Shown: positions 4,742-60,798 of the stretch, one piece after another | How the letters are laid out: every line of letters starts with the position of its first letter | Position numbering within the stretch: the stretch's first letter is position 1 | From: Nitrospirota bacterium | GTDB lineage: Bacteria > Nitrospirota > Thermodesulfovibrionia > Thermodesulfovibrionales > Dissulfurispiraceae | Reading direction: 5' to 3' | Length of the DNA stretch: 60,798 bases | Assembly: GCA_040752355.1 (NCBI GenBank) | Contig: JBFMHE010000024.1 | Span: 1-60,798 of the forward strand | Translations under genes and position numbers: made by a program | Notes under the pieces: generated by a model | The model's input: the letters and a program-made list of their open reading frames with translations, nothing else | What the model was told of the DNA's origin: nothing | Database searches by the model: none

Positions 4742-4829
4742 GGAGAGGTGCCGGAGCGGTTGAACGGGGCGGTCTCGAAAACCGTTGACCTTTCGGGGTC
4801 CCAGGGTTCGAATCCCTGCCTCTCCGCCA
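4742..4829 (+). tRNA. tRNA-Ser (anticodon CGA, reads UCG)
   Basis: The acceptor stem GGAGAGG (4742-4748) pairs with CCTCTCC (4819-4825), followed by G and an encoded CCA. The anticodon loop CTCGAAA is closed by GCGGT/ACCGT and gives anticodon CGA. The T arm contains GGTTCGAATCC, and a long variable arm marks a class II tRNA. A TATAAT at 4725-4730 is a likely -10. Confidence 0.95.
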
Positions 4830-48849: not shown

Positions 48850-50668
48850 GCTCGACCCCCTCTATCGATCTTTTGGGACAGACATGGAGGCAGACGCCGC
48901 AGCCGGTGCACAGGATCCTGTTGATACGCACCTTCTTCGCCGCCTCGTCGGGCTCGAGTGCGGGGCACTCGAACTCCTTGGTGCAGTACCCGCACCCGTC
49001 GCACTCTTCGGATATCGCCACCGCCACTGCGGGGAGGCGTTCCTCTTTCGAGCGCTTATCCATCAGGCAGGGATAGCGTGCGATGACCACCGCCAGCCCG
49101 TGCGTCCTGCTGTGCTCGCGCGCCTCTTTGAGCAGCGCGACGAAGTGGGGGACCCTGTACGGATTGCCCTCCTTGCAGAAGGCCACCCCGCAGCTCTTCA
49201 CGAGGCCCTCGATCGATATCTTCCCGGTAACGTCGCCGCAGGCGCCTATGCCGGTGGCGGGCGTCGGCTGGTTGCCGGTCATCGCGGTGGTGGAGTTGTC
49301 GAGCACCACGAGCACGAAGCGGGCGTCCTGCACCACGGCATCGATGAGCGCCGGTATCCCGGCATGGAAGAAGGTGGAATCGCCGATGGTGGCGACGATG
49401 TCGGTCTCTTTTCCCATCTGGCGGTAGGCATGGTAGAATCCCGCTGCCTGGCTGACCGATGCGCCCATGCAGAGGGCCGTATCGATGGCGCCCAGATTCA
49501 GCCCGAGGGTGTAACACCCGATATCGCTGGTATAAATGCTGCGGCTATGGGGGATCGCTTTCTTTATGGCGAAGAAACTGGCCCGGTGGGGACAGCCGGG
49601 ACAGAGGCTCGGCCTTCTCCCGGCTGCTGCCGGAGGCGGGGCAGCTGTCTCGGCCGAGGCGCCGGTGAAATCGGCGATGATCCGCTCTATATGTTCGGGA
49701 AGCAGTTCTCCTGCTTCGGGCACTGCGCCGCTCATCTTTCCCCGTACTTTAGAGCGGTCCGCGAGCTGCATCTCGATGACGCCTGTCGTCTCTTCGAGCA
49801 CCAGGATCTCGTCGTAGGTGCCCAGCAGCGTCCGCATGAAGTCGGTGTGGAGCGGATAGGGCTGCAGCACCTGGTACACGGCGCAGGAGTCCCGGAGATG
49901 CAGGTCGTCCATGATCTCTTTCGTGTGCGCGGCGGCAACACCGGAGGTGACGACCGCTTTCTTCGCCGTGACCCCGGGACTGAGCAGGCGGGGCGCTGTC
50001 TGCGGATACACAGCCATCGCCTTGAGCTTATCGTTCAGCCCCCGATGCAGGAGGAGACGGAACTTGGGGGTCGCGGCCCAGCGGGTCGGTTCTTTCCGAA
50101 AGCCCCCGTTCCGCTCGATCCTGAGCAGATCGCCGAGCGCGATATCCTGCGAGGCATGGCAGACCCTCGTGGTGGGCCTCAGCAGCACCGGAACCTCGAA
50201 GGCTTCGGAGAGCTCGTAGGCGAGGGCGATGAACTCCTTCGCCTCCCGGGGTGTGGAGGGGTCGAGGACCGGGACCTTGGCGAACATCGCCATCAGGCGG
50301 CTGTCCTGTTCGGTCTGTGAAGAGTGCGGTCCCGGGTCGTCGGCGCAGATGACGATGAACCCGCCTTTCACCCCCATGTACGCCGCGCTCAGCAGCGGGT
50401 CGGCGGCGACATTGAGGCCGACCTGTTTCATGCTGACCATGGTGCGGAGGCCGGCGATGCTGCCGGCGAAGGCTATCTCGAAGGCTATCTTCTCGTTGAC
50501 CGCCCACTGCGCATGGAGGGGAAGGGAGAGCTCCTTCTTCCATTTGACGACCGCGGGCAGTATCTCGGACGCCGGGGTGCCGGGATAGGAGGTCGCCACG
50601 GCGCAGCCGTTTTCCACCAGCCCTCGGGCGATGGCATCGTTGCCCATCATCAAGACGCGACTGCTCAC
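48842..50668 (-). CDS. iorA: Indolepyruvate:ferredoxin oxidoreductase alpha subunit
   Basis: 608 residues. The N-terminal pyrimidine-binding part (GNDAIARGLVENG, YPGTPASEI) and the TPP-binding domain (TSDIGCYTLGLN, ATIGDSTFFHAG) lead to a C-terminal ferredoxin-type domain with two 4Fe-4S motifs (CDGCGYC and CTGCGVCLHVCP). The enzyme works on transaminated aromatic amino acids under anaerobic conditions. It heads the iorA-iorB-paaK operon, divergent from the TRAP transporter. Confidence 0.96.
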   Translation of the reverse strand: MSSRVLMMGNDAIARGLVENGCAVATSYPGTPASEILPAVVKWKKELSLPLHAQWAVNEKIAFEIAFAGSIAGLRTMVSMKQVGLNVAADPLLSAAYMGVKGGFIVICADDPGPHSSQTEQDSRLMAMFAKVPVLDPSTPREAKEFIALAYELSEAFEVPVLLRPTTRVCHASQDIALGDLLRIERNGGFRKEPTRWAATPKFRLLLHRGLNDKLKAMAVYPQTAPRLLSPGVTAKKAVVTSGVAAAHTKEIMDDLHLRDSCAVYQVLQPYPLHTDFMRTLLGTYDEILVLEETTGVIEMQLADRSKVRGKMSGAVPEAGELLPEHIERIIADFTGASAETAAPPPAAAGRRPSLCPGCPHRASFFAIKKAIPHSRSIYTSDIGCYTLGLNLGAIDTALCMGASVSQAAGFYHAYRQMGKETDIVATIGDSTFFHAGIPALIDAVVQDARFVLVVLDNSTTAMTGNQPTPATGIGACGDVTGKISIEGLVKSCGVAFCKEGNPYRVPHFVALLKEAREHSRTHGLAVVIARYPCLMDKRSKEERLPAVAVAISEECDGCGYCTKEFECPALEPDEAAKKVRINRILCTGCGVCLHVCPKRSIEGVERA

Positions 50669-50875
50669 TGCCGGAAACGCTCCTCAACGGTGATGATCTT
50701 CTCTCGCGACGCATCCTGCACGAAGCGGCACGAGCATTTATACTAAGGTCCTGCCCGAAAGCTTGTCAAGCAGAGACCGCATAGGAAAAAAGCACGGTAA
50801 ACATGATATGATATCGCTCTGCTTGGATACGGAACTTAGCTATAATGCCGTACCATACATTCCGGGGAGGCTGTT

Positions 50876-51910
50876 ATGAATACGAAGCGGTTTCTTTTTT
50901 TGTTCGTGGTTGTAGCCCTTATAGCGGTCGCGGCGTTCGTTGTTCCCGATAGTGCCGCGGCCCAGCCGACGATCACCCTGACCTATGCGAATTTCCCCCC
51001 TGCCGCGACGTTCCCGAGCGTGCAGATGGAGCGGTGGGCGAAAGAGATCGAGAAGAGGACCAACGGGAAGGTGAAGGTCCAGACCTTCCCGGGCGGGACG
51101 CTCCTCCCGGCAAAGAACATCCTCGACGGCGTGATTTCGGGCGCTGCCGACATCGGCAACTTCGCGATGAGCTATCAGCCGGGCCGCTTCCCCGTCTCCG
51201 AGGCGGTCGATCTCCCGCTCGGCTTCACCAGCGCCAAGGTGGCGAGCCTCGTGCTCTACGACCTCGTCGAGAAGTACAACCCGAAGGAGTTCGAGAAGGT
51301 GAAGATCATCACCCTCTTCACCTGTCCGCCGACGAATTTCATGACCAAGGCGCCGGTCAGGACGCTCAAGGACCTGAAGGGACTCGAGATAAGGGCAGCG
51401 GCTACGGGAGCGGACGCGGTGAAGCGCCTGGGCGGGACGCCGATCGCCATGCCCCAGTCCGAAGTGCCCGAAGCGATCCAGAAGGGCGTCGTGAAAGGAA
51501 TGCTGTCATCCCTCGAGATACTGCAGGACTTTAAGTTCGCCGCTTACACGCCCTATGCGACGATCGTCGAGCTCCCGGTCGTCTCGTTTGCCGTTGTGAT
51601 GAACAAGGAGAAGTGGAATATGCTTCCCGACGACGTCAAGAAGGTCATCGACGACCTGCGGAGAGAGCAGGCGCTCTGGACAGGGACGTATGTCGACGAC
51701 CATGTGAAAGAGGCGCTCGAGTGGTCGAAAAAGACTTATAACCACCAGGTCTTCCAGCTGCCGAAGAGCGACCGGGCCGAGATCCGGAAGCTCCTGAATC
51801 CCATGGTCGATGAGTATGTGAAGAGGACGAATGCCCTCGGGCTGCCGGGGACACAGATCGTCAAGGATGCCGAAACCCTGAAGAAGAAGTACGAGAAAAA
51901 ATACAAATAA
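50876..51910 (+). CDS. dctP: TRAP transporter substrate-binding protein (DctP family)
   Basis: 344 residues with a signal peptide (about 1-29, ending AAA) and the DctP pattern: PPAATFPSVQMERWAKEIEKRTNGKVKVQ (in part), LKGLEIRA and GTPIAMPQSEVPEAIQKGVV. The bound substrate is an organic acid not specified by sequence. Ribosome site GGGGAGG and a -10 TATAAT at 50841-50846 are upstream. First gene of dctPQM. Confidence 0.94.
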   Translation: MNTKRFLFLFVVVALIAVAAFVVPDSAAAQPTITLTYANFPPAATFPSVQMERWAKEIEKRTNGKVKVQTFPGGTLLPAKNILDGVISGAADIGNFAMSYQPGRFPVSEAVDLPLGFTSAKVASLVLYDLVEKYNPKEFEKVKIITLFTCPPTNFMTKAPVRTLKDLKGLEIRAAATGADAVKRLGGTPIAMPQSEVPEAIQKGVVKGMLSSLEILQDFKFAAYTPYATIVELPVVSFAVVMNKEKWNMLPDDVKKVIDDLRREQALWTGTYVDDHVKEALEWSKKTYNHQVFQLPKSDRAEIRKLLNPMVDEYVKRTNALGLPGTQIVKDAETLKKKYEKKYK

Positions 51911-51954
51911 AAGCATTGAGCCTTAAGCCCCCGGCAGCCAGCGGAACAGATTTT

Positions 51955-51997
51955 TCCTTGTCAGCTGACTGCAGAAGGCTGACGGCTGAAAGCGTGT
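51955..51997. repeat. GCTGA/TCAGC mini-repeat between dctP and dctQ
   Basis: The stretch contains TCAGCTGACTGCAG and GGCTGACGGCTGAAAGC. Its reverse complement contains TCAGCCGTCAGC, which also occurs in the in-frame insertion of the alcohol dehydrogenase gene. It occupies most of the 93-bp gap before dctQ. Confidence 0.6.
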
Positions 51998-52003
51998 TGG
52001 CGC

Positions 52004-52495
52004 ATGATCGACCGTCTCGAAAAATTCAATTCGCTCCTGAACAGGCTGCTGGTGGTCCTGGGCGGTGCGGCGCTGCTCGGCATGACGCTCCTCGCCACCG
52101 GCAATATCCTGCTCAGGATATTCAACATCCCCTACCGGGGGACCTACGAGGTCGTCTCGTTCATGGGAGCGCTCGTTATCGCCTTTGCCCTCGGTTATAC
52201 GCAGCAGAAGAGGGACCATATCGTCGTCGATATCCTCTCGGGTAAATTCCCCCGACCGCTGAAACGCCTTCTCGACAGCGTTTACTATCTCGTTACCGCG
52301 GCGCTCTTCGGGGTGGTCTCCCGGCAGATCTATCTCTGGGGAATGAAGATAAAAGAGTCGGGCGAGCTCTCGGAGACGCTCAAGATCGTCTACTATCCCT
52401 TCGTCTTCTGCGTTGCGGCGGGGTTCGCGATCCTCGCCCTCACGCTCGTCATCCAACTGCTCAAGAGCCTCGCAGCAGGGGAAGAGCGCCGATGA
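52004..52495 (+). CDS. dctQ: TRAP transporter small permease (DctQ)
   Basis: 163 residues with four transmembrane helices (about 17-37, 50-70, 88-108, 130-150), the layout of the small TRAP subunit. It overlaps dctM by 4 bp (ATGA). It bridges the binding protein to the large subunit in the inner membrane. Confidence 0.9.
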   Translation: MIDRLEKFNSLLNRLLVVLGGAALLGMTLLATGNILLRIFNIPYRGTYEVVSFMGALVIAFALGYTQQKRDHIVVDILSGKFPRPLKRLLDSVYYLVTAALFGVVSRQIYLWGMKIKESGELSETLKIVYYPFVFCVAAGFAILALTLVIQLLKSLAAGEERR

Positions 52496-53796
52496 GCGGG
52501 CCGGTCGTCGGCGTCTACGGCATCCTCATCATGTTCGCGATGCTCTTCCTGCTCAGGATACCCGCGGCCTTCACCATGGCGCTCGTCGGCTTCCTGGGGA
52601 TTACGTATGTGACATCGCTCAATGCCGCGCTCGGCATGATCGGCGCCGATCTCTGGAATATCTTTTCGAGCTACGGGCTCACCGTCATTCCGCTCTTCAT
52701 TCTTCTCGGGGAGTTCGTGCACTACGCAGGCTACAACAACAGCCTCTACCACGCGACCTACAAGTGGTTCGGCCACTTCAGGGGCGGGCTCGCCATGACC
52801 ACGATCATGGCGTCGGCCGCCTTCTCCGCCATAAGCGGATCGAACACCGCCACCGCGGCCACGATGAGCGCCGTTGCGATCCCGGCGATGAAGAAGTACA
52901 ATTATCACCCGACGCTCAACGCCGGCGCCGTGGCTGCCGGCGCGACCCTCGGCGTGCTCATCCCCCCCAGCATCGTCCTCGTCGTCTACGGCCTGTATAC
53001 GGGCCAGTCCATAGGAAAGCTCTTCTTCGGAAACGTCATTCCGAGCATTATTCTCACGATACTGATCGCAGCGACGGTGGTCTTCATCTGCTACCGCCAC
53101 CCCGATTGGGGACCGAAGGGGCCGAAGAGCTCCTGGGCAGAACGGCTGAAGGCGCTTCCCGAGGCGCTCGACATCCTGGTGCTCTTCGCCGTCATCATGG
53201 TCGCCCTCTTTACCGGCGTGGTCACCGCCACCGAAGCTGCCGCGGCGAGCTGCACCCTTGCCCTCGTCATCTGCGTGGTGCGGCGGAAGCTCTCGTGGAA
53301 GGGCTTCACGGCATCGATCACCGATACGCTCCGCATCTCCTGCATGGTTTTCATGATCCTCGCGGGCGCCGTCGTCTTCGGCCGCTTTCTCACCCTGACG
53401 CGGCTGCCCTTCGAGGCAGCGGCATGGATCGGGACCCTCGCCATGCCGAAGTGGATCGTGCTCTGGATAATTCTCTTCTTCTATATCATCGGGGGCTGCG
53501 TCATGGACGCCCTCGCCTTTCTCCTCGTCTCGCTCCCGATCTTCTATCCCCTCGTCATCCAGATGGGCTACGATCCGATCTGGTTCGGCCAGGTCATCAC
53601 CATCGTGACCACCATGGGATCGATCATGCCGCCCATCGGGATCTGCAGCTACGTCGTCGCCGGCATGGCCGATATCCCGCTCGCCACGGTCTTCAAGGGA
53701 GGGTTCTACTACATCCCCTCGTACCTCGCATCGATCTCGATCCTCATGTTCTCGCCCTACTGGACCGTGCTCGTCCTCTCGAACCTGGTGAACTGA
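52492..53796 (+). CDS. dctM: TRAP transporter large permease (DctM)
   Basis: 434 residues with about twelve transmembrane helices and DctM motifs such as VIPLFILLGEFVHYAG, GSNTATAATMSAVAIPAM and the LIPPSIVLVVYG repeat element. It is the Na+-coupled transport subunit. The location opposite iorAB-paaK suggests an aryl or 2-oxo acid as substrate, which is inference. Confidence 0.94.
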   Translation: MSGPVVGVYGILIMFAMLFLLRIPAAFTMALVGFLGITYVTSLNAALGMIGADLWNIFSSYGLTVIPLFILLGEFVHYAGYNNSLYHATYKWFGHFRGGLAMTTIMASAAFSAISGSNTATAATMSAVAIPAMKKYNYHPTLNAGAVAAGATLGVLIPPSIVLVVYGLYTGQSIGKLFFGNVIPSIILTILIAATVVFICYRHPDWGPKGPKSSWAERLKALPEALDILVLFAVIMVALFTGVVTATEAAAASCTLALVICVVRRKLSWKGFTASITDTLRISCMVFMILAGAVVFGRFLTLTRLPFEAAAWIGTLAMPKWIVLWIILFFYIIGGCVMDALAFLLVSLPIFYPLVIQMGYDPIWFGQVITIVTTMGSIMPPIGICSYVVAGMADIPLATVFKGGFYYIPSYLASISILMFSPYWTVLVLSNLVN

Positions 53797-54327
53797 TTAC
53801 CGCTTTTTGCCGGTCTTGTCTTCTACCGGCCTCGGTCTGTCTCTCCTGGCATCGACGATGCAGAAAAAGCCGAAGGGCTCGTCGTAAGGGTTGGTGAGCT
53901 GGTGGACCGTATCGGGTCCGATGTAGACGGTATCGAGATGACCGATTGCATAGAGCCGCTTCCCCATGCGCACCTTCCCCTTGCCGCGGACACCGATCAC
54001 GACATGCGCGTGGCGGTGCTGTTCGAGGCTGCTGTAGCCGCCGGGAGCGATCTCGAAATAGCGCAGATGGAACTTCGTCGCCTCGCCCTTGTTGCCGACG
54101 AGCACCTTCCTGACGATCGACGACCACCCGCCGTCCTTCTGCTTATAGCGCTCGGTCTTTACGCCGCTCCACCGGCAGCCGGGGCGGCAGCGGTGGATCC
54201 GGTCTCTTTCCGCGGGCCCGGAGCCGGCGCGCTTCCGCCGTTCTTTCCCTTTTACAGGCGGACTCGTCCAATCGCAGGAGGGTGCTGCGTCTGCCGGAAG
54301 GGGATCTTTCTTTCTTTTTGATATCAT
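53797..54327 (-). CDS. Cupin-domain protein with a basic N-terminal region
   Basis: About 176 residues. A Lys/Arg/Pro-rich N-terminus with a CRPGCRWSG motif leads to a cupin fold (about 80-165): YSSLEQHRHAHVVIGVRGKGKV supplies the His residues of a metal site, and GPDTVHQLTNP the closing His. Substrate unknown. The start at 54327 is preferred over 54363, which overlaps the cheV leader. It converges with dctM, ending right at its stop. Confidence 0.78.
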   Translation of the reverse strand: MISKRKKDPLPADAAPSCDWTSPPVKGKERRKRAGSGPAERDRIHRCRPGCRWSGVKTERYKQKDGGWSSIVRKVLVGNKGEATKFHLRYFEIAPGGYSSLEQHRHAHVVIGVRGKGKVRMGKRLYAIGHLDTVYIGPDTVHQLTNPYDEPFGFFCIVDARRDRPRPVEDKTGKKR

Positions 54328-54434
54328 GGGTTCATTATAATGAAATTCAAGAATTCCATGCAAAACCCGAATATACAGGTATATCTATGGCTAACGTTCC
54401 CATCAGAAAAAACCAGATACAGAGCGGAGGGAGT

Positions 54435-55406
54435 ATGGCTCAGAATCCCGGTGCCTTGCCGGAGGTCTTGAAGGTCGGAGCGAACGAGATGGAGCTGGTG
54501 GTCTTCAGGATGTACAGCACCCTTCCTGACGGGACCCCCGAGGTGCTCGACTACGGCGTCAATGTGGCGAAGGTGCGGGAGATCATCCCCATGCCGACGG
54601 TGACCAAGGTCCCTGACATGCCCGCCTATGCCGAGGCATTGGCCGAAGTGCGCGGAGAGGTCATCCCCATCGTGAATCTCGGCCAATGGATGAGGATAGA
54701 GGCCCCTGCTGCGATGGAGATCCGTCCGAAAGTGATCGTGCTCGAGATGCTCGGGACCACCGTCGGGATGATCGTCCATGACGTCGAGCGCATCAGGAGA
54801 ATCAAGTGGGACCAGATAAAGCCGCCGCCGTCGCTCCTCCAGGCGAAGCACAGCGGCAGGGTGACCGGAGTGACCAAGCTCGACGACGAGACCGAGTCGC
54901 TGCTCCTCATCCTCGACCTCGAGAGCATCATCTCCGAGATGGGCGGCTTTGTGCCCAAGCACGAAATAGCCCTCGAAGAGATCGAGCAGGTGGAGAAGAG
55001 GAAGCTGAAAGGGACCGTGCTCATCGCCGACGATTCCGGCGTCGCACGAAGAATTCTGAAGGATACCCTCGAGAATGCGGGCCTCCATGTCATCGAGGCG
55101 CAGGACGGCAAGCAGGCATTGGACATCCTGAACGACTTCCTGCCGAGGATCGGCGACCAGCCTATCACCAATTTCGTCCAGCTCATCATCTCCGATGTCG
55201 AGATGCCCGAGATGGACGGTCTCACCTTCACCAAGAATGTGAAGAACAACGCCAAGCTCCAGATCATCCCGATCATCATCAATACCTCGTTGAGCGGCGA
55301 TGAAAACAAGGAGAAGGCGAAGAGCGTCGGCGCTGAAGGCTACCTGGTGAAGTTCGATGTCACCAAGCTCCTGCGCGAAGTATCGCGGTGTATTAAGGTG
55401 AATTAG
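54435..55406 (+). CDS. cheV: CheV-type chemotaxis coupling protein (CheW plus receiver)
   Basis: About 324 residues. The CheW-like domain (about 15-170; ELVVFRM, YGVNVAKVREIIPMP, VRGEVIPIVNLGQWM) is followed by a receiver (about 200-324) with ADDSGVAR, phospho-acceptor Asp in LIISDVEMPEMDG and the Lys of EGYLVKFD. It links chemoreceptors to the kinase and tunes adaptation. The ATG at 54435 follows GGAGGG and matches the family N-terminus; an ATG at 54387 in the same frame is the alternative. No receptor gene is adjacent. Confidence 0.9.
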   Translation: MAQNPGALPEVLKVGANEMELVVFRMYSTLPDGTPEVLDYGVNVAKVREIIPMPTVTKVPDMPAYAEALAEVRGEVIPIVNLGQWMRIEAPAAMEIRPKVIVLEMLGTTVGMIVHDVERIRRIKWDQIKPPPSLLQAKHSGRVTGVTKLDDETESLLLILDLESIISEMGGFVPKHEIALEEIEQVEKRKLKGTVLIADDSGVARRILKDTLENAGLHVIEAQDGKQALDILNDFLPRIGDQPITNFVQLIISDVEMPEMDGLTFTKNVKNNAKLQIIPIIINTSLSGDENKEKAKSVGAEGYLVKFDVTKLLREVSRCIKVN

Positions 55407-55597
55407 AGCGTCTAACGGAATGAGCAGAGGCGAGTCAGACAAGGCACAGTATGTTCGCTCATTCTCGACGGGCATCCAGCCCGTCTCCGAGGCTGGATCA
55501 GCCCGCTTCACCATCCCTGGATTTCGCCTGGGCTGATCAAGCCGCTCACCTACTATACCTCGTCCGACTCCAAGCTGCGTTATTTCGTTAGGGGCTC
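55406..55597. repeat. 192-bp imperfect palindromic element with two inner hairpins
   Basis: The outer arms of about 50 bp mirror each other: GAGCGTCTAACGGAAT on the left against GAGCCCCTAACGAAAT on the right (reverse complement), then GAGTCAGACAAGG against GAGTCGGACGAGG. Inside are a perfect hairpin (GACGGGC-ATCCA-GCCCGTC, 55467-55485) and a second one (GATCAGCCC at 55496-55504 with GGGCTGATC at 55530-55538). It starts at the last base of the cheV stop codon and ends 18 bp before the end of the alcohol dehydrogenase gene, so it fills the gap. It could be a miniature mobile element, a structured RNA or a bidirectional terminator. Confidence 0.75.
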
Positions 55598-55614
55598 ATA
55601 GATTCGATAGAGTA

Positions 55615-56664
55615 TCAGCCGCCGAAGGTGACGAGGCACTTCAGCGAGTCGCGCGCTTCGGCGGTCAGTTTATACGCCTGCGCCGTCTCGTCGATGCCGA
55701 AGCGGTGGGTCACGAGCTTGTCCGCTGTAACGAATCCCTTCCTGATAAACTCCAACGCTTCTTTCGTATCGGTAGGACCGCACGAGTAGCTTGTCACCAG
55801 GCTGATGTCGTTGAAGTAGAGGTGGTTGGGATCGACGGTCAGCATCTCGCCCGGCTTGGCCGGGGTGAAGAGGACCACCGACCCTCCCGGCGCCGCTGCC
55901 GCTATGCCGGTCTCCATGACCGCAGCGCTGTTCGGCCCGACGATAACGATATCCGCCATGCGGCCGCCTGTCAGCTCACGCACCCTGGCGATCATATCCT
56001 CCTTTGACACATCGATGACATGATCTGCGCCGAGCTCGAGCGCCTTCCGTAATCTGGACGGTATCATGTCCGTGCCGATGACCCGCTTCGCCCCAAAGGC
56101 CCGTGCGAGGAGTACATGCATCTGGCCCATGACGCCGAGGCCGATGACGAGCATCGTATCTCCGGGCCTGACCGCCGCCCGCCGCAGCGACTTCACCACG
56201 CATGCCGTGGGCTCCACGAGCGTGCCGTCCTCATAGCTCACCCCTTCGGGAAGCCTGATCGTATCGTGCCTGAGATTCGTCTCGGGAATGAGCACGTATT
56301 CGGCGATGCCGCCGGGGACGATCTTCGTCGTGCGCCAGGTCGAGCACTGCACATGGTCGCCCCGCTCGCAGCAGGCGCAGGAGAGGCACGGCGCATGGTG
56401 GTGCACGAAGACCCGGTCACCGACACTGAACGCCGGTGGCTGAGAGCTGACGGCTGACAGCTCTTTCCCCAGCTCGACGATCTCCCCTGCCGGCTCATGC
56501 CCGATCACCAGAGGCGCCTTCTTCTCGATATACCACGGCATCACATCCCCCGAACAGATGCCGCACGCCTTCGTTTTTATCAATGCATCACGCGGTCCGA
56601 CTTTAGGGACAGGCATGTCCTCGATGCGAATATCCGTAAAGCTGTAGAGCCTGGCGACTTTCAT
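55615..56664 (-). CDS. Zinc-dependent medium-chain alcohol dehydrogenase, with in-frame insertion
   Basis: 349 residues. Catalytic zinc ligands lie in ACGICSGD and GHEPAGE; the structural zinc Cys cluster CLSCACCERGDHVQC is at about 93-107; the NAD(P) motif is VIGLGVMGQMH. It oxidises an alcohol or polyol; the substrate is unknown. Residues about 69-79 (LSAVSSQPPAF) interrupt the usual GKxVxxFxVGDRV region and are encoded by TCAGC mini-repeat DNA. Its start codon overlaps the integrase stop (ATGA), with GGAGAG inside the integrase end as ribosome site. Confidence 0.92.
   Translation of the reverse strand: MKVARLYSFTDIRIEDMPVPKVGPRDALIKTKACGICSGDVMPWYIEKKAPLVIGHEPAGEIVELGKELSAVSSQPPAFSVGDRVFVHHHAPCLSCACCERGDHVQCSTWRTTKIVPGGIAEYVLIPETNLRHDTIRLPEGVSYEDGTLVEPTACVVKSLRRAAVRPGDTMLVIGLGVMGQMHVLLARAFGAKRVIGTDMIPSRLRKALELGADHVIDVSKEDMIARVRELTGGRMADIVIVGPNSAAVMETGIAAAAPGGSVVLFTPAKPGEMLTVDPNHLYFNDISLVTSYSCGPTDTKEALEFIRKGFVTADKLVTHRFGIDETAQAYKLTAEARDSLKCLVTFGG
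56428..56465 (-). repeat. GCTGA/TCAGC mini-repeat inside the alcohol dehydrogenase gene
   Basis: The coding strand reads CTGTCAGCCGTCAGCTCTCAGCC, broken here as CTGTCAGCCGTCAGC plus TCTCAGCC, encoding LSAVSSQP. It shares TCAGCCGTCAGC with the repeat between dctP and dctQ and resembles the one in aroC. Confidence 0.65.
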
Positions 56665-57974
56665 TTGCTCTCTCCATAAAGTACATCCAATGGACTCTGA
56701 GGCGCATTTGCCATGTTACGAAGGACATGAGTATAGATCATAGTCGTTTCAACATTTTTATGCCCAAGGAGGCTCTGGACCTCTCTGATATTGATACCGT
56801 TCTGAAGCAGATGCGTAGCAAAGCTGTGTCTCAGCGTATGGACTGTTGCATGCTTAACTATACCTGCCTGCCGCAGCGCATCTCTGAGTGCAAGTTGAAT
56901 GGATTTATCGCTGATGTGATGTCGCCCGACCTTGCCGCCTCTCGGATCTACAGAAAGCTTGGACGAGGGGAAAACATATTGCCACCGCCATTCTTTAGCG
57001 GCATCAGGGTATTTCCGTTCAAGCGCATCCGGCAGAAAGACCGCTCCATGTCCGGCGGCAACGTCCTTGTCGTGAAGCGCCTTTACCTTCTTCAGATGCT
57101 CTCTCAATCGCTCCTTCACCGCTACTGGAAGCATTGTCGTGCGGTCCTTGTCACCCTTGCCACTGCGGATAAAGATCGTGTTTGCATCAAGGTCAATATC
57201 CTGCACCCGCAACCGGGCGAGCTCCATAAGGCGAAGCCCGGCCCCGTAGAGCAGCTCGGCAATCAGTAGATTGGTCCCGGTCATATGCCTGAACAACTGT
57301 CCCATCTCTTCTACGGTAAGCACAACCGGGAGCTTCTGTCCGCGTTTCGCTCTGACGGTATCGCCGAGATGTTCTGTCTCCTTGTTAAGTACATAGCGAA
57401 AGAGAAACAGAATCGCGTTGAAGGCCTGGTTTTGAGTAGAAGAAGATACTCTTTGCTTAAGCGCAAGATGGCTCAGGAAATTTTTGAAATCTGCCGATGA
57501 CAAATCATCTATTTTCTTGTCGTCAGATTCAAGGGCATAAGAGAAGAAACGCTCGATCCACTGAAGGTATGTTCGTTCGGTACTGTACGAATAATGCTTC
57601 AACCTTATCAAGCGCCTTGTCTCTCTGAAAGCGCTATCTCTATCCGCGATCCTTGCTGCGCCCGCGGTCTGACCGCCGGTTTTGCCGAGATAATTGAAAT
57701 AATAAAGCCTCAGTGCATCGCTTGCCTGCTTCGGCTGCCACTCAAGAACACGTTTGTCCGACCGCAGGGTCTCGATAAACTCCTGAACCGCTATTTCATC
57801 ATACTCCGTCACTGAGCGCTCAAGCCTGCGGGCAAATACGAAAAACCTGCTTACCCAATAAGCGAGAAACGGGATATTTTTTTCAGGGGCAAGCTTTCTT
57901 TCCGCAAGGAACTTTTGAAACTCAGGAAGGAGGTTATTATTAACATCAGACGATTTTGCCATATTTCCCGCCAT
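56661..57974 (-). CDS. intI: Integron integrase (IntI-type tyrosine recombinase)
   Basis: About 437 residues. The tyrosine-recombinase set is complete: Arg248 (YGAGLRLMEL), His379 and Arg382 (HTLRHSFATHLL), His405 (LLGHKN) and Tyr414 (IYTHV). The extra patch found only in integron integrases (about 305-336: HGAVFLPDALERKYPDAAK, then EWRWQYVFPSS) identifies it as IntI rather than XerC/D or a phage integrase. An N-terminal extension of about 115 residues precedes the core SAM-like domain. ATG at 57974 is chosen; GTG at 57998 and ATG at 57962 are alternatives. It reads away from its cassettes, as usual, and its stop overlaps the adh start. Confidence 0.95.
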   Translation of the reverse strand: MAGNMAKSSDVNNNLLPEFQKFLAERKLAPEKNIPFLAYWVSRFFVFARRLERSVTEYDEIAVQEFIETLRSDKRVLEWQPKQASDALRLYYFNYLGKTGGQTAGAARIADRDSAFRETRRLIRLKHYSYSTERTYLQWIERFFSYALESDDKKIDDLSSADFKNFLSHLALKQRVSSSTQNQAFNAILFLFRYVLNKETEHLGDTVRAKRGQKLPVVLTVEEMGQLFRHMTGTNLLIAELLYGAGLRLMELARLRVQDIDLDANTIFIRSGKGDKDRTTMLPVAVKERLREHLKKVKALHDKDVAAGHGAVFLPDALERKYPDAAKEWRWQYVFPSSKLSVDPRGGKVGRHHISDKSIQLALRDALRQAGIVKHATVHTLRHSFATHLLQNGINIREVQSLLGHKNVETTMIYTHVLRNMANAPQSPLDVLYGESK

Positions 57975-58049
57975 TTCGCTTTTAAACCATATTACCACAA
58001 AAAACGAAAAAGTGAAAATGCCTGCAATTGATTTTATGGCAGTTTTCTA

Positions 58050-58078
58050 TTTCAAAAAATCTCTCAATGTGCTATAGT
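58050..58078 (+). promoter_or_regulatory. Candidate integron cassette promoter (Pc)
   Basis: TGTGCTATAGT (58068-58078) is an extended -10; a weak TTTCAA (58050-58055) lies 17 bp upstream of TATAGT. It points into the cassettes from between intI and attI, where cassette promoters are found. The same -10 word serves host genes at 4945, 15151 and 35231. Confidence 0.5.
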
Positions 58079-58125
58079 GGAGACAATTTTAAGTAATATG
58101 GCGGTCCGTATAGTAATTGTTCGGC
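58079..58125 (+). other. Candidate attI site
   Basis: The first cassette joins the platform at GTTCGGC (58119-58125), with the crossover after G58119. TTCGGC is the exact complement partner of GCCGAAC, the 5' box of the first attC, so this is the insertion point. The left limit of attI is a guess; the integrase core-site repeats cannot be defined by eye. Confidence 0.75.
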
Positions 58126-58152
58126 ATTTAAATCACAACAGGAGGTCTAATA

Positions 58153-58848
58153 TTGAGATGTACGTGTGAGAATATAGCTGTTCCCGACATAAAACTTTCT
58201 ACGGTGTGTATTGGTCATCTGTGGATGTTCAACAACATTACCGCAACTGAGTTGGAGGTTCTCGCTGGCAATGCTAAACGTCGACAAATCGGGAAAGGCA
58301 AGTTTATTTTTAACCAAGGGGATCCATCTACCGAAATGTTCCTAATGAAATCTGGTAGGGTCAAATTGACTAAAATCCTCGAGAATGGTAACGAAATCAC
58401 CTTGGATATTAGAAAAGCTGGGGATTTTATCGGTGAAAATATTTTTTCTGGCGAAAACCTCTATCCAGTAAACGCTGTGTGTATGGACAATACACTTACC
58501 TGTGGATTTTCAAGGGAACAGTTAAGCCAGATGATACTACAATACCCAAATATCGGCTTACAGATTATAAAAAATATGAGCGAAAGAATTTCTCAACTTA
58601 CCAGCAAAGTTGGCTCAATGGCCGAAACGAGCATTGAAGATCGTCTATATAGTGTTCTCAAACAAATTGCAAATGAACATGGCATTCCAAGTCAAAAAGG
58701 TGTGAAATTACAATTCCCTTTGACCCATGAAGAATTAAGTTTTCTTATCGGCGCACATCGTGTCAGTGTCACAAAAGCCATAAAATATCTCAAGGAAACA
58801 GGGAAAATAGAAATAGACAACCGAGTCATGATTATTACACCCGGATGA
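58153..58848 (+). CDS. Cassette-borne CRP/FNR-type regulator with N-terminal cysteines
   Basis: 231 residues in cassette 1. TTG start, 7 bp after GGAGG; the ATG at 58158 is out of frame. Cys3, Cys5 and Cys19 near the N-terminus and two more in the sensor domain (VCMDNTLTCGFS) could hold an iron-sulfur cluster as in FNR, though spacing differs. The cyclic-nucleotide-like barrel (about 25-145) is followed by a Crp-type helix-turn-helix. Its recognition helix, GAHRVSVTKAI, lacks the Glu and Arg of FNR (VETISR), so its DNA site should differ from TTGAT. A palindrome TGTAGC-N4-GCTACA lies right after the gene. AT-rich relative to the chromosome. Confidence 0.9.
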   Translation: MRCTCENIAVPDIKLSTVCIGHLWMFNNITATELEVLAGNAKRRQIGKGKFIFNQGDPSTEMFLMKSGRVKLTKILENGNEITLDIRKAGDFIGENIFSGENLYPVNAVCMDNTLTCGFSREQLSQMILQYPNIGLQIIKNMSERISQLTSKVGSMAETSIEDRLYSVLKQIANEHGIPSQKGVKLQFPLTHEELSFLIGAHRVSVTKAIKYLKETGKIEIDNRVMIITPG

Positions 58849-58893
58849 TTTTTTTCACTATGAGGACAACAGAATTTAAATAAAAAAAGTAAA

Positions 58894-58936
58894 TGTAGCC
58901 TCAGCTACAACGTTTTATGTCTGTGTGGACTATATT
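58894..58936 (+). promoter_or_regulatory. Palindromic operator at about -41.5 and -10 of the flavoprotein gene
   Basis: TGTAGC-CTCA-GCTACA (58894-58909) is a perfect inverted repeat of CRP/FNR size. The -10 TATATT is at 58931-58936 and no -35 is seen. With a start near 58943, the operator centre at 58901.5 is at about -41.5, where class II activators of this family bind. The regulator gene ends 45 bp upstream. Confidence 0.65.
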
Positions 58937-58972
58937 AATCCCAACCTTAACCTAAACCGAGGAGGATTAATT

Positions 58973-59626
58973 ATGGACCCTAAAGTTATTGGTATTTCTG
59001 GAAGCCCTGTAAAAGATTCAAACACTGACAGATTAGTCAAGGCCGTACTCGAAAATAGTGGTCTGCCCCATGAATTTATCAAACTCAGTCGCGTAAAAGT
59101 ACAACCCTGCATTGCCTGTCTTGGTTGTACGAAAGACAATATCTGTAAAGTTAAAGATGATTTCCCTGCTCTCGCAGAAAAGATTAAAAAAGCTGGCGCA
59201 ATTGTTGTTGGTGGATATCCTCCATATGGAACTATAGATGGTTTTACTAAATCTTTTCTTGAAAGACTTTTCTCGCTTCGGCACCAAAATGGTTTTAATC
59301 GTGGCAAGTTAGCAGTCGTTGTTGTGACAGGAATTGGTCGTGGTGCTCCTGGTCTTGAAGAAGCTAGTAACCAGGTAACCCATGCACTGACTTTAGAAGG
59401 AATGGACGTGCTTGGCCAGCTTAAGGCTACAGGCAACCCAGAATGTATGGTTTGTGGCTTTGGTCAATCTTGCCCAATGAGCGCACTTCCTTGGATTTTT
59501 GGCAAGGATACGGAAGTAACACCTGAAAAATTTTGTAATGTGGAAAACCAGCATAATATTTGGAATGAAGCACATAGGCTTGGCAAGGAAATCCACAACC
59601 GACTCAAGCAGCAGCAATCCATGTAA
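58973..59626 (+). CDS. Iron-sulfur flavoprotein (NADPH-dependent FMN reductase fold)
   Basis: 217 residues in cassette 1. Flavodoxin-like FMN-binding start (VIGISGSPVKDSNTDRLV), then a compact Cys motif CIACLGCTKDNICKVKDDF (C-x2-C-x2-C-x5-C, about 45-57), the 4Fe-4S signature of Methanosarcina Isf-type proteins, then GGYPPYGTIDGFTKSFLERL. Isf proteins reduce O2 or peroxide in anaerobes. The ATG at 58973 follows GAGGAGG. Further Cys residues near the C-terminus (ECMVCGFGQSC) are an oddity. Pairs with the FNR-type regulator upstream. Confidence 0.9.
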   Translation: MDPKVIGISGSPVKDSNTDRLVKAVLENSGLPHEFIKLSRVKVQPCIACLGCTKDNICKVKDDFPALAEKIKKAGAIVVGGYPPYGTIDGFTKSFLERLFSLRHQNGFNRGKLAVVVVTGIGRGAPGLEEASNQVTHALTLEGMDVLGQLKATGNPECMVCGFGQSCPMSALPWIFGKDTEVTPEKFCNVENQHNIWNEAHRLGKEIHNRLKQQQSM

Positions 59627-59651
59627 TATTGGACAAATCATATTCCATGAC

Positions 59652-59683
59652 AAAAGAGGAGCGCTTCGCTCCTCTTTTTTTTT
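59652..59683 (+). terminator. Strong intrinsic terminator inside cassette 1
   Basis: AAAAGAGGAGCG (59652-59663) and CGCTCCTCTTTT (59667-59678) form a perfect 12-bp stem with a CTT loop, followed by T residues to 59683. It lies 26 bp after the flavoprotein stop. It would stop both the cassette's own transcript and read-through from Pc into cassette 2. Confidence 0.92.
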
Positions 59684-59772
59684 CGCAAGCTGCCTAACAA
59701 CCTCGGGAAATGAGTGTTAATGCGGTGTCAAAAGAAAAATTGGATACATTTTCTAACAAATAAACGACAAAA

Positions 59773-59861
59773 GCCGAACAAACGCATAGAGAGGGACGGC
59801 GGGGAGCAGCTTTCTCTGAAACTATTTCATTGGCCGCCGCCCCTCATGCTAGGCGTTGGGC
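59773..59861 (+). other. attC site of cassette 1
   Basis: 89 bp. 5' box GCCGAAC (59773-59779), 3' box GTTGGGC (59855-59861) with crossover after G59855. Between them, GAGGGACGGCGG (59791-59802) pairs with CCGCCGCCCCTC (59834-59845), giving the long imperfect palindrome that attC needs. The core GACGGCGGGGAGCAGC is shared with the second attC. 5' box complements the start of cassette 1 (TTCGGC). Confidence 0.9.
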
Positions 59862-59938
59862 GGCGCACGATGCAACCGCCCGGCAGCGTCAATCGTAGGT
59901 CTGACATACAAAACCAACAATAAATAATTGGAGATTAC

Positions 59939-60211
59939 ATGGATATAACGGCATGGCTGTTAATAGCTATCTTTTGCATAGGAATTATATCACTAATTGG
60001 ATTCTTTGTTACAAAAACAAAGGGATTTGGTCGCTTTGCAACAAGCTCGTTTCTATTGCTTCTAGTCATTGTAGTGTCATCTCTTTTTTATGCATCTGGA
60101 AAACTTGATGCCCAAGTATTTGCAAATATATTATTTGCGGTTATTGGCTTTGCCGGTGGTCTATTTACTGGGAAAGAGAAAGAACCAACAACCAATAATG
60201 TCACCAAATAG
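59939..60211 (+). CDS. Cassette 2 small membrane protein (hypothetical)
   Basis: 90 residues, three hydrophobic helices (about 5-24, 35-53, 62-77) and a hydrophilic Lys/Glu/Asn tail. Ribosome site TTGGAG 5 bp before the ATG. No family recognised. It is the first gene of cassette 2, about 80 bp from the cassette start; the cassette begins with a GGGCGG-N12-CCGCCC hairpin. Confidence 0.75.
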   Translation: MDITAWLLIAIFCIGIISLIGFFVTKTKGFGRFATSSFLLLLVIVVSSLFYASGKLDAQVFANILFAVIGFAGGLFTGKEKEPTTNNVTK

Positions 60212-60224
60212 CTACTCAATAGAA

Positions 60225-60464
60225 ATGAGCATTATATCAAATATCGCTAAGGCAGTGTCTAATTGGTACAACGGAGCATATATCCCTCACGAAAACCCCC
60301 ATGATTCTCCTTTGGTTATTCCTGGCGGGGATTATGAGTGCCACTGGACTGCAATAGCAGCTAAAGCAATTATCGGTTTCTATTTAAGGCATTGGCAATG
60401 GCTTTGGACAACTATCATTGCCATTATCGGGGTGTATGCCACTGTTCTTACGCTTAAACCGTAG
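60225..60464 (+). CDS. Cassette 2 second gene: small protein with C-terminal membrane helix
   Basis: 79 residues: a soluble start (ISNIAKAVSNWYNGAYIPHENPHDSP), shown here only in part in running text, a YECHW segment, then hydrophobic residues about 42-76 with Trp-rich LRHWQWLWTTII. It begins 13 bp after the stop of the first gene, so translation may be coupled. The frame is open back to 60090 and an ATG at 60198 overlaps the first gene; neither start has a good ribosome site. It reminds me of hypothetical proteins often seen in integron cassettes, but that is memory, not a search. Confidence 0.6.
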   Translation: MSIISNIAKAVSNWYNGAYIPHENPHDSPLVIPGGDYECHWTAIAAKAIIGFYLRHWQWLWTTIIAIIGVYATVLTLKP

Positions 60465-60586
60465 AGACTCAAGTCCCATCCCAAAGAAAGCACCAGATAC
60501 CCAGAAAAGCATATTAGACAACACAAGAAACGAAAATCTTATAGTATTTTCAGACATTAAGGCACCTATCTAAAATAAAAATCTTA

Positions 60587-60679
60587 GCCCAACAATTGGG
60601 TCAACCAGACGGCGGGGAGCAGCGTCGCGCTAGTCGCGGCAAGTTCAGTGGCCGCCGCTGGTTACCCTTGGCGTTCTGT
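60587..60679 (+). other. attC site of cassette 2
   Basis: 93 bp. 5' box GCCCAAC (60587-60593), a perfect RYYYAAC, and 3' end GTTCTGT (60673-60679) with crossover after G60673. CCAGACGGCGG (60605-60615) pairs with CCGCCGCTGG (60652-60661). Its 5' box complements the first bases of cassette 2 (TTGGGC) rather than the following bases, as expected in an array. The apical part CGTCGCG/CGCGGC forms a further stem. Confidence 0.9.
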
Positions 60680-60786
60680 GAAAATAACTGCAAAATAAAG
60701 ACGAAATTAACGGCATAATAAACAAGAAGAAATAACGGCTATACATGATGGATGAAAGAATCCAATTTCAATCGGAGGGTAATGGG

Positions 60787-60798
60787 ATGAGTAAGGGC
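60787..60798 (+). CDS. First codons of the cassette 3 gene (partial)
   Basis: ATG at 60787 follows GGAGGG with 7 bp spacing, an excellent ribosome site. Only MSKG is visible. An in-frame ATG at 60745 would give MMDERIQFQSEGNGMSKG but has no ribosome site. Product unknown. Confidence 0.45.

Follow-up and report, generated by a model that had tools for sequence, protein, structure and literature searches.

What kind of element closes this Nitrospirota contig, how does its integrase recognize its attachment site, and how is the integrase gene kept quiet? The window, meaning the whole 60,798-nucleotide stretch of contig JBFMHE010000024.1 analysed here, ends in an integrase gene (intI), an adjoining attachment site (attI) and two complete, self-consistent gene cassettes that end in attC sites. 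These features support the integron reading of the initial annotation. We hold with high confidence that the locus is a bona fide chromosomal integron whose integrase belongs to a multi-phylum lineage with a duplicated core-binding domain. Taken alone, the integron is of an ordinary type, met here in a phylum that has received less study. The result of greatest interest, whose mechanism is also the least certain, is a motif that links attI to the intI promoter over a set of 44 integrons. The integron is laid out as follows.

56661–57974, minus strand: intI, integron integrase, 437 amino acids from ATG 57974 (TIGR02249, 425 bits); frame open to GTG 57998 and beyond
57663–57947, minus strand: N-terminal extension, residues 18–112, a second SAM-like core-binding domain by profile and predicted fold
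57375–57620, minus strand: canonical core-binding domain (Phage_int_SAM_4, Pfam)
56721–57323, minus strand: catalytic domain (PF00589), with the IntI-specific insertion at about 56967–57035
58097–58121, plus strand: attI, a variable 12 nt (58097–58108) and the core TATAGTAATTG|TT (58109–58121), from comparison of relatives' upstream regions
58120–59855, plus strand: cassette 1, 1736 bp, start TTCGGC, attC opening GCCGAAC, R''/R' pairing 7/7
59773–59861, plus strand: attC1, from stem finder, folding and R''/R' pairing
59856–60673, plus strand: cassette 2, 818 bp, start TTGGGC, attC opening GCCCAAC, R''/R' pairing 7/7
60587–60679, plus strand: attC2, from stem finder, folding and R''/R' pairing
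60674–60798, plus strand: start of cassette 3, interrupted by the contig end

Profile and fold searches identify the enzyme as an integron integrase. The intI product scored 425.1 bits against TIGR02249 (cut-off 265) versus 158 bits for XerC and 143.5 bits for XerD, both under their own cut-offs (335 and 329.6); this ranking had been named beforehand as a check. No other protein of the 3.57-Mb genome (44 contigs) passes the TIGR02249 cut-off. Against NF011946, a narrower integrase model, the product stayed below threshold (294.7 bits, cut-off 435). The annotation had also cited an integron-specific insertion, and LPDALERKYP..WQYVFP is indeed found in the catalytic domain. The best fold match of the whole predicted model is 2a3v (Z 26.2 over 300 residues), presumably the IntI of Vibrio cholerae; the title of that structure refers to broad DNA-specificity in integron recombination. 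Across 43 aligned sequences R256, K281, H387, R390, H413 and Y422 (numbered from GTG 57998) are invariant, and we take them to be the catalytic residues. The tyrosine recombinase catalytic set is given as RKHRH plus Y in the relevant passage of one survey (PMC8138268). The window IntI is probably active in recombination. GC content is 59.6% over positions 1–56660, 49.0% in intI, 40.5% in cassette 1 and 42.3% in cassette 2.

Both complete cassettes are internally consistent. A stem finder built on AAC/GTT plus stem extension, written with knowledge of the two window attCs, made calls over the whole window at 59773–59861 and 60587–60679 only, exactly the coordinates of the initial annotation. 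The strict RYYYAAC/GTTRRRY pattern returned zero sites, missing both window attCs as well, because their boxes are relaxed. The complementarity claimed for each cassette start and its attC holds at 7/7 positions in 2/2 complete cassettes; AAC/GTT is fixed, so each match has four free bases and a chance of about 1/256 per cassette. Folded as circular forms, both attCs give a 7-bp R stem, a 4–5 nt unpaired spacer and a bulged inner stem, and their hairpins show paired R and L boxes. Shuffles of the attC inside folded equally well in 1/200 cases for attC1 and 8/200 for attC2. Bottom-strand folding in the window context gave z −3.5 for attC1 and a weaker −1.66 for attC2, and by analogy with other integrons IntI would use this bottom strand. 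An Rfam search of 50000–60798 gave one sub-threshold, irrelevant match.

The array runs off the window, as annotated, with cassette 3 starting at 60674. In a search for its continuation the last 120 bases matched only themselves plus two 15-base stretches, and the stem finder called only C37 (L045) among the nine smallest contigs, at two weak sites with score 9. An exact attC-core match on contig C39 was rejected as the continuation; it is not an attC by the stem finder.

Comparison of relatives resolves attI to the base. That attI adjoins intI was part of the initial annotation; the crossover placement is added here. Upstream regions of relatives can be aligned up to TATA[G/T]TAATTGTT and diverge beyond it, after GTT, which places the crossover at G58119|T58120. 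The core consensus TATA[G/T]TAATTG|TT is common to relatives in other phyla: at 0–1 substitutions it occurs in 31/72 upstream regions of extended IntIs, in 0/72 shuffled regions and upstream of 0/41 remaining IntIs (some truncated). It is clear at that level in Nitrospirota, Thermodesulfobacteriota, Myxococcota and Omnitrophota members, and weak or unseen in members on the Verrucomicrobiota side.

Profile and predicted fold together mark the N-terminal extension of these IntIs as a second core-binding domain, a feature that the initial annotation did not mention and that we add. Pfam found two SAM_4 stretches in the window IntI, the second one weak, and the extension profile matched the protein's own core-binding profile with a probability of 94% in local and 78% in global alignment. 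Predicted alone, the extension is a helical domain with a mean predicted local distance difference test score of 91.5. Its best solved match is residues 3–90 of 2a3v (Z 10.5, root mean square deviation 3.2, 88 residues). Tyrosine recombinases likewise fill the 21 rows that follow (Z 9.6 to 7.5), and beneath them come unrelated rows at Z 4.0 and below. For a helical domain a Z of 10.5 is moderate, and Foldseek alone gave nothing below E 0.001 (best 0.1, again 2a3v), so we base the assignment on the fold and profile results jointly. Among the papers listed from a literature set with most subscription journals outside it, no title or abstract opening reported a second core-binding domain in IntI or IntI autorepression.

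IntIs of this form span several phyla. Matches at E ≤ 1e-60 turn up in 92 of 395 genomes from the phylum, some of them lacking the extension. We count an IntI as extended when its match to the window protein begins no later than residue 35. In a quick tree built from 134 core sequences, the window falls in a clade of 73 (Shimodaira–Hasegawa-like approximate likelihood ratio test 99), made up of 63 extended members, 9 truncated by contig ends and 1 whose frame is interrupted (L144). Lineage labels, mostly from metagenome-assembled genomes (MAGs), cover Nitrospirota, Thermodesulfobacteriota, Myxococcota, Omnitrophota, Elusimicrobiota and the Verrucomicrobiota-Kiritimatiellota-Lentisphaerota group. 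These phyla are interleaved within the clade, which suggests horizontal transfer of the lineage among them. The extension is not confined to this clade: 83 rows carry it in total, and the label requires 17 changes on the tree, a number that truncated rows inflate. These counts do not establish a single origin of the extension.

Calls of attC-like sites also accompany some relatives of the window IntI. A scan of genome contigs gave 123 stretches that encode relatives, of which the best 80 were kept as loci. The attC finder is palindromic and makes equal calls on both strands, so the informative contrast is between array side and downstream side: 70 attC-like calls in 194 kb versus 11 in 498 kb, over 65 of the 80 loci. 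In eight loci picked for having several attCs, 15/21 consecutive attC pairs match 7/7, though 5 of the 15 come from L162, whose IntI is without the extension. A close relative of the window integrase, 79% identical (L056, G026:C64; L094), is interrupted by one internal TAA, and its 10 kb upstream drew no attC call; it may be an emptied integron. For several relatives (L093, L095, L100, L101 and others) the contig stops near attI, less than 300 bases from the start of intI, as if assemblies broke where cassettes vary between cells. Two further groups differ at the N-terminus. Other IntIs of the phylum (L207, L209, L211, L212, L215, L218, L219, L221) have a different, HARP-like N-terminal domain (KIKTVAGRRWH..HWTVP); PF07443, run on two of them, matched L209 only, at E 0.017 and under its cut-off. 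A separate IntI-like group (L066, L067, L068, L216, L217, L224) has frames of 478–526 amino acids with a SAM-like N-terminal domain and a long linker.

The attC sites point outward, to other genomes. The initial annotation had read the 16-bp core common to both attCs as a sign of a sedentary integron; the shared core stands, but the argument from it does not. Over their length attC1 and attC2 are identical at only 57/89 positions, and each of the two visible attCs is closer to one elsewhere, unlike the homogenised attCs of a sedentary integron. attC2 agrees at 84/87 positions with an attC of G186, a genome belonging to the same class, and at 82/87 with one from a Smithella MAG (L171, Thermodesulfobacteriota). 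For attC1 the figure is 69/85, with an attC on IMG/VR contig L241, an origin that does not by itself show viral nature. Because attC2 is nearly identical to attCs in other genomes yet so unlike attC1, we suggest a shared cassette pool in place of a homogenised sedentary array. Only 3/395 genomes from the phylum contain the core pattern: G186, G173 (zero attC calls) and the genome of the window itself. This attC type is therefore rare and patchy, as expected for exchanged cassettes. Among viral contigs the pattern occurs in 9, with an attC call overlapping it in 4 (L241, L243, L244, L245), and a plasmid search with attC2 gave no match.

In a set of 44 integrons, the bases before the attI core resemble the integron's own intI promoter region more than those of others. 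In the window the relevant promoter feature is:

57989–57994, minus strand: likely −10 of the intI promoter, in the context TGGTAATAT

Because GTG 57998 overlaps this likely −10, ATG 57974 or 57962 is the likelier start of intI. Starting from 75 distinct upstream regions, 57 had an attI core within 3 substitutions and 44 were kept, namely those whose core has at most 2 substitutions at the expected distance. A −10-like element (TATTA[ACT] or AATAA[ACT]A) lies 105–150 bp from the core in 36/44 integrons, versus a mean of 10.4 and a maximum of 19 in shuffles. The 10 nt before the core match their own promoter region with a mean of 7.39, against 6.51 for those of other integrons (z 7.5, 0/2000 permutations, which ignore the tree, over 44 integrons of which some may be false attI calls). 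The signal is local: windows shifted by 2, 4 and 6 nt gave z 7.7, 4.0 and 2.7, and shifts of 8 to 26 nt reached at most 2.0, at 15 nt (63/2000), with the rest at or below 0.6. Reduced to 28 non-redundant 12-nt motifs, the comparison still gave 8.61 for own promoters versus 7.43 (0/5000 permutations). The own promoter is matched at 9/12 or better in 25/44 integrons, versus a fraction of 0.148 of mismatched pairs, and has a median rank of 4.5 of 44. The best match sits just downstream of the −10-like element.

We tentatively propose that IntI binds both copies. Its paired core-binding domains would grip the variable element next to the attI crossover as well as the related element at the intI promoter, and IntI bound there would limit its own expression; we infer this role for the second domain from its predicted fold and the paired motif. 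At attI, IntI would recombine the folded attC bottom strand at G58119|T58120. It is doubtful, though conceivable, that this holds for the cross-phylum lineage as a private recognition code, under control by its own integrase and not by SOS, in which changing specificity of the second core-binding domain would be paralleled by the attI element and the intI operator.

Several observations count against this proposal. The window's own motif match is weak, at 8/12 and 74 bp from the core, outside the usual 127–150 bp; in L173, its nearest relative on the tree, the match is 8/12 at 145 bp. The motif test left out 31/75 upstream regions (18 with no core within 3 substitutions, 11 with 3, and 2 with the core elsewhere). 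A search for attI by shared 9-mers in 18 IntIs without the extension gave nothing usable. With no attI found for such IntIs the motif test could not be compared with them, and a tie of the motif to the extension is conjectural. In a protein-segment tracking test on 39/44 integrons, permutations reached the observed slope in 10/500 cases for the extension, 22/500 for the catalytic domain and 142/500 for the core-binding domain, and a control stretch further out gave 68, 27 and 190/500 for the same segments; no one segment emerged as the one that the motif follows. At the level of the integron, an array-side attC call is present in only 30/65 loci, some loci with kilobases of upstream DNA having none, and the window array can be read no further than the contig end at 60798.

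An accessory role in recombination is possible but doubtful: by analogy with DR1 and DR2 of attI1, the promoter copy would be an accessory recombination or topology site and not an operator. Supplementary binding at DR1 and DR2 is described as favoring attI1 x attC recombination in the part of PMC8946536 that treats these sites. The spacing of the promoter copy is regular, with the best match 127–150 bp from the core in 30/44 integrons versus a fraction of 0.39 of mismatched pairs. Its position just downstream of a recurring −10-like element fits less well, since a protein occupying that spot should impede transcription.

A host repressor, LexA or another, is an unlikely owner of the motif, with intI under SOS control as in well-studied integrons. 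LexA control of intI is called a highly conserved feature in passages of two papers (PMC8946536, PMC3108266), and lexA and recA are both present in this genome. Unlike other chromosomal integrons, the window intI shows no recognized LexA site, a weak test in that the host's LexA site is not established: eight LexA patterns are absent from the intI promoter but also from the regions upstream of the genome's own lexA and recA, so this was no real test. The lexA dyad TATACAAATGTATA is likewise absent from the intI promoter. There are also two cases in which two integrons of one MAG have differing attI motifs (L111/L132 and L138/L146), unexpected for a single host repressor, although three of these four match their own promoter at only 8/12 and MAG bins can be mixed. 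Finally, decay of the window integron into inactivity is improbable, for although matches in G026, G259 and G339 (C99) show broken close relatives with one TAA each, the window intI frame is open with its catalytic residues kept, and the two cassettes are whole, their R''/R' pairing exact.

Past IntI action would have assembled a first cassette with a Crp/Fnr regulator and a flavin reductase and a second encoding a small hydrophobic protein:

58051–58078, plus strand: candidate cassette promoter Pc, TTCAAA-16-TATAGT with TG, from a consensus scan only
58153–58848, plus strand: cassette 1 gene, Crp/Fnr-type regulator (PF00027, PF13545)
58973–59626, plus strand: cassette 1 gene, NADPH-dependent flavin mononucleotide (FMN) reductase-like (PF03358)
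59652–59678, plus strand: terminator-like hairpin in cassette 1 (hairpin scan)
59939–60211, plus strand: cassette 2 open frame, 90 amino acids, hydrophobic, without a Pfam match

The stretch scanned for Pc holds 11 promoter-like sites, versus 7.6 in shuffles, with the consensus match at 58051–58078. The hairpin at 59652–59678 is strong and would be expected to block Pc readthrough into cassette 2. Relatives of the reductase at E ≤ 1e-30 occur in 4 other genomes of 295 searched, at 41–45% identity; one of these (L252, G208) has a Crp relative (55%) nearby in reverse gene order, and zero attC calls in its 3.6-kb stretch. Elsewhere, a tRNA-Ser (cga) at 4742–4829 is the sole ARAGORN tRNA in the window.

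Three known systems come closest to the window integron. Like chromosomal integrons and 2a3v, it has an IntI core with the specific insertion, an attI with a G|TT crossover and attC hairpins; unlike them, its IntI has a second N-terminal core-binding domain and its attI core is TATA[G/T]TAATTG|TT. Nemergut et al. (2008) describe a clade 15 of Deltaproteobacterial IntIs that average about 120 amino acids longer through a single gene fusion (PMC2426708); the passage on this clade does not identify the added part and discusses no attI or promoter motif. Compared by that description only, clade 15 is likely the lineage studied here, and its extra length is probably the doubled core-binding domain. 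RitA, of the recombinase-in-trio elements, shares two sequential core-binding domains with the predicted fold of the window IntI. In contrast to RitA, the window enzyme has the IntI insertion and is not one of three adjacent recombinase genes, its gene being flanked by an alcohol dehydrogenase gene and the cassette array, with the Crp/Fnr gene first.

The lineage stands in contrast to a survey that, in its passage on RitA, gives two sequential core-binding domains to RitA and states them absent from all other tyrosine recombinases (PMC8138268). Near-identical attCs in different phyla suggest that its members draw on a shared cassette pool. With its doubled core-binding domain, an integrase of this lineage may control its own gene, and that domain, alongside a promoter motif whose variation follows that of attI, offers a direct way to ask how IntI recognizes attI and how integrons stay quiet.

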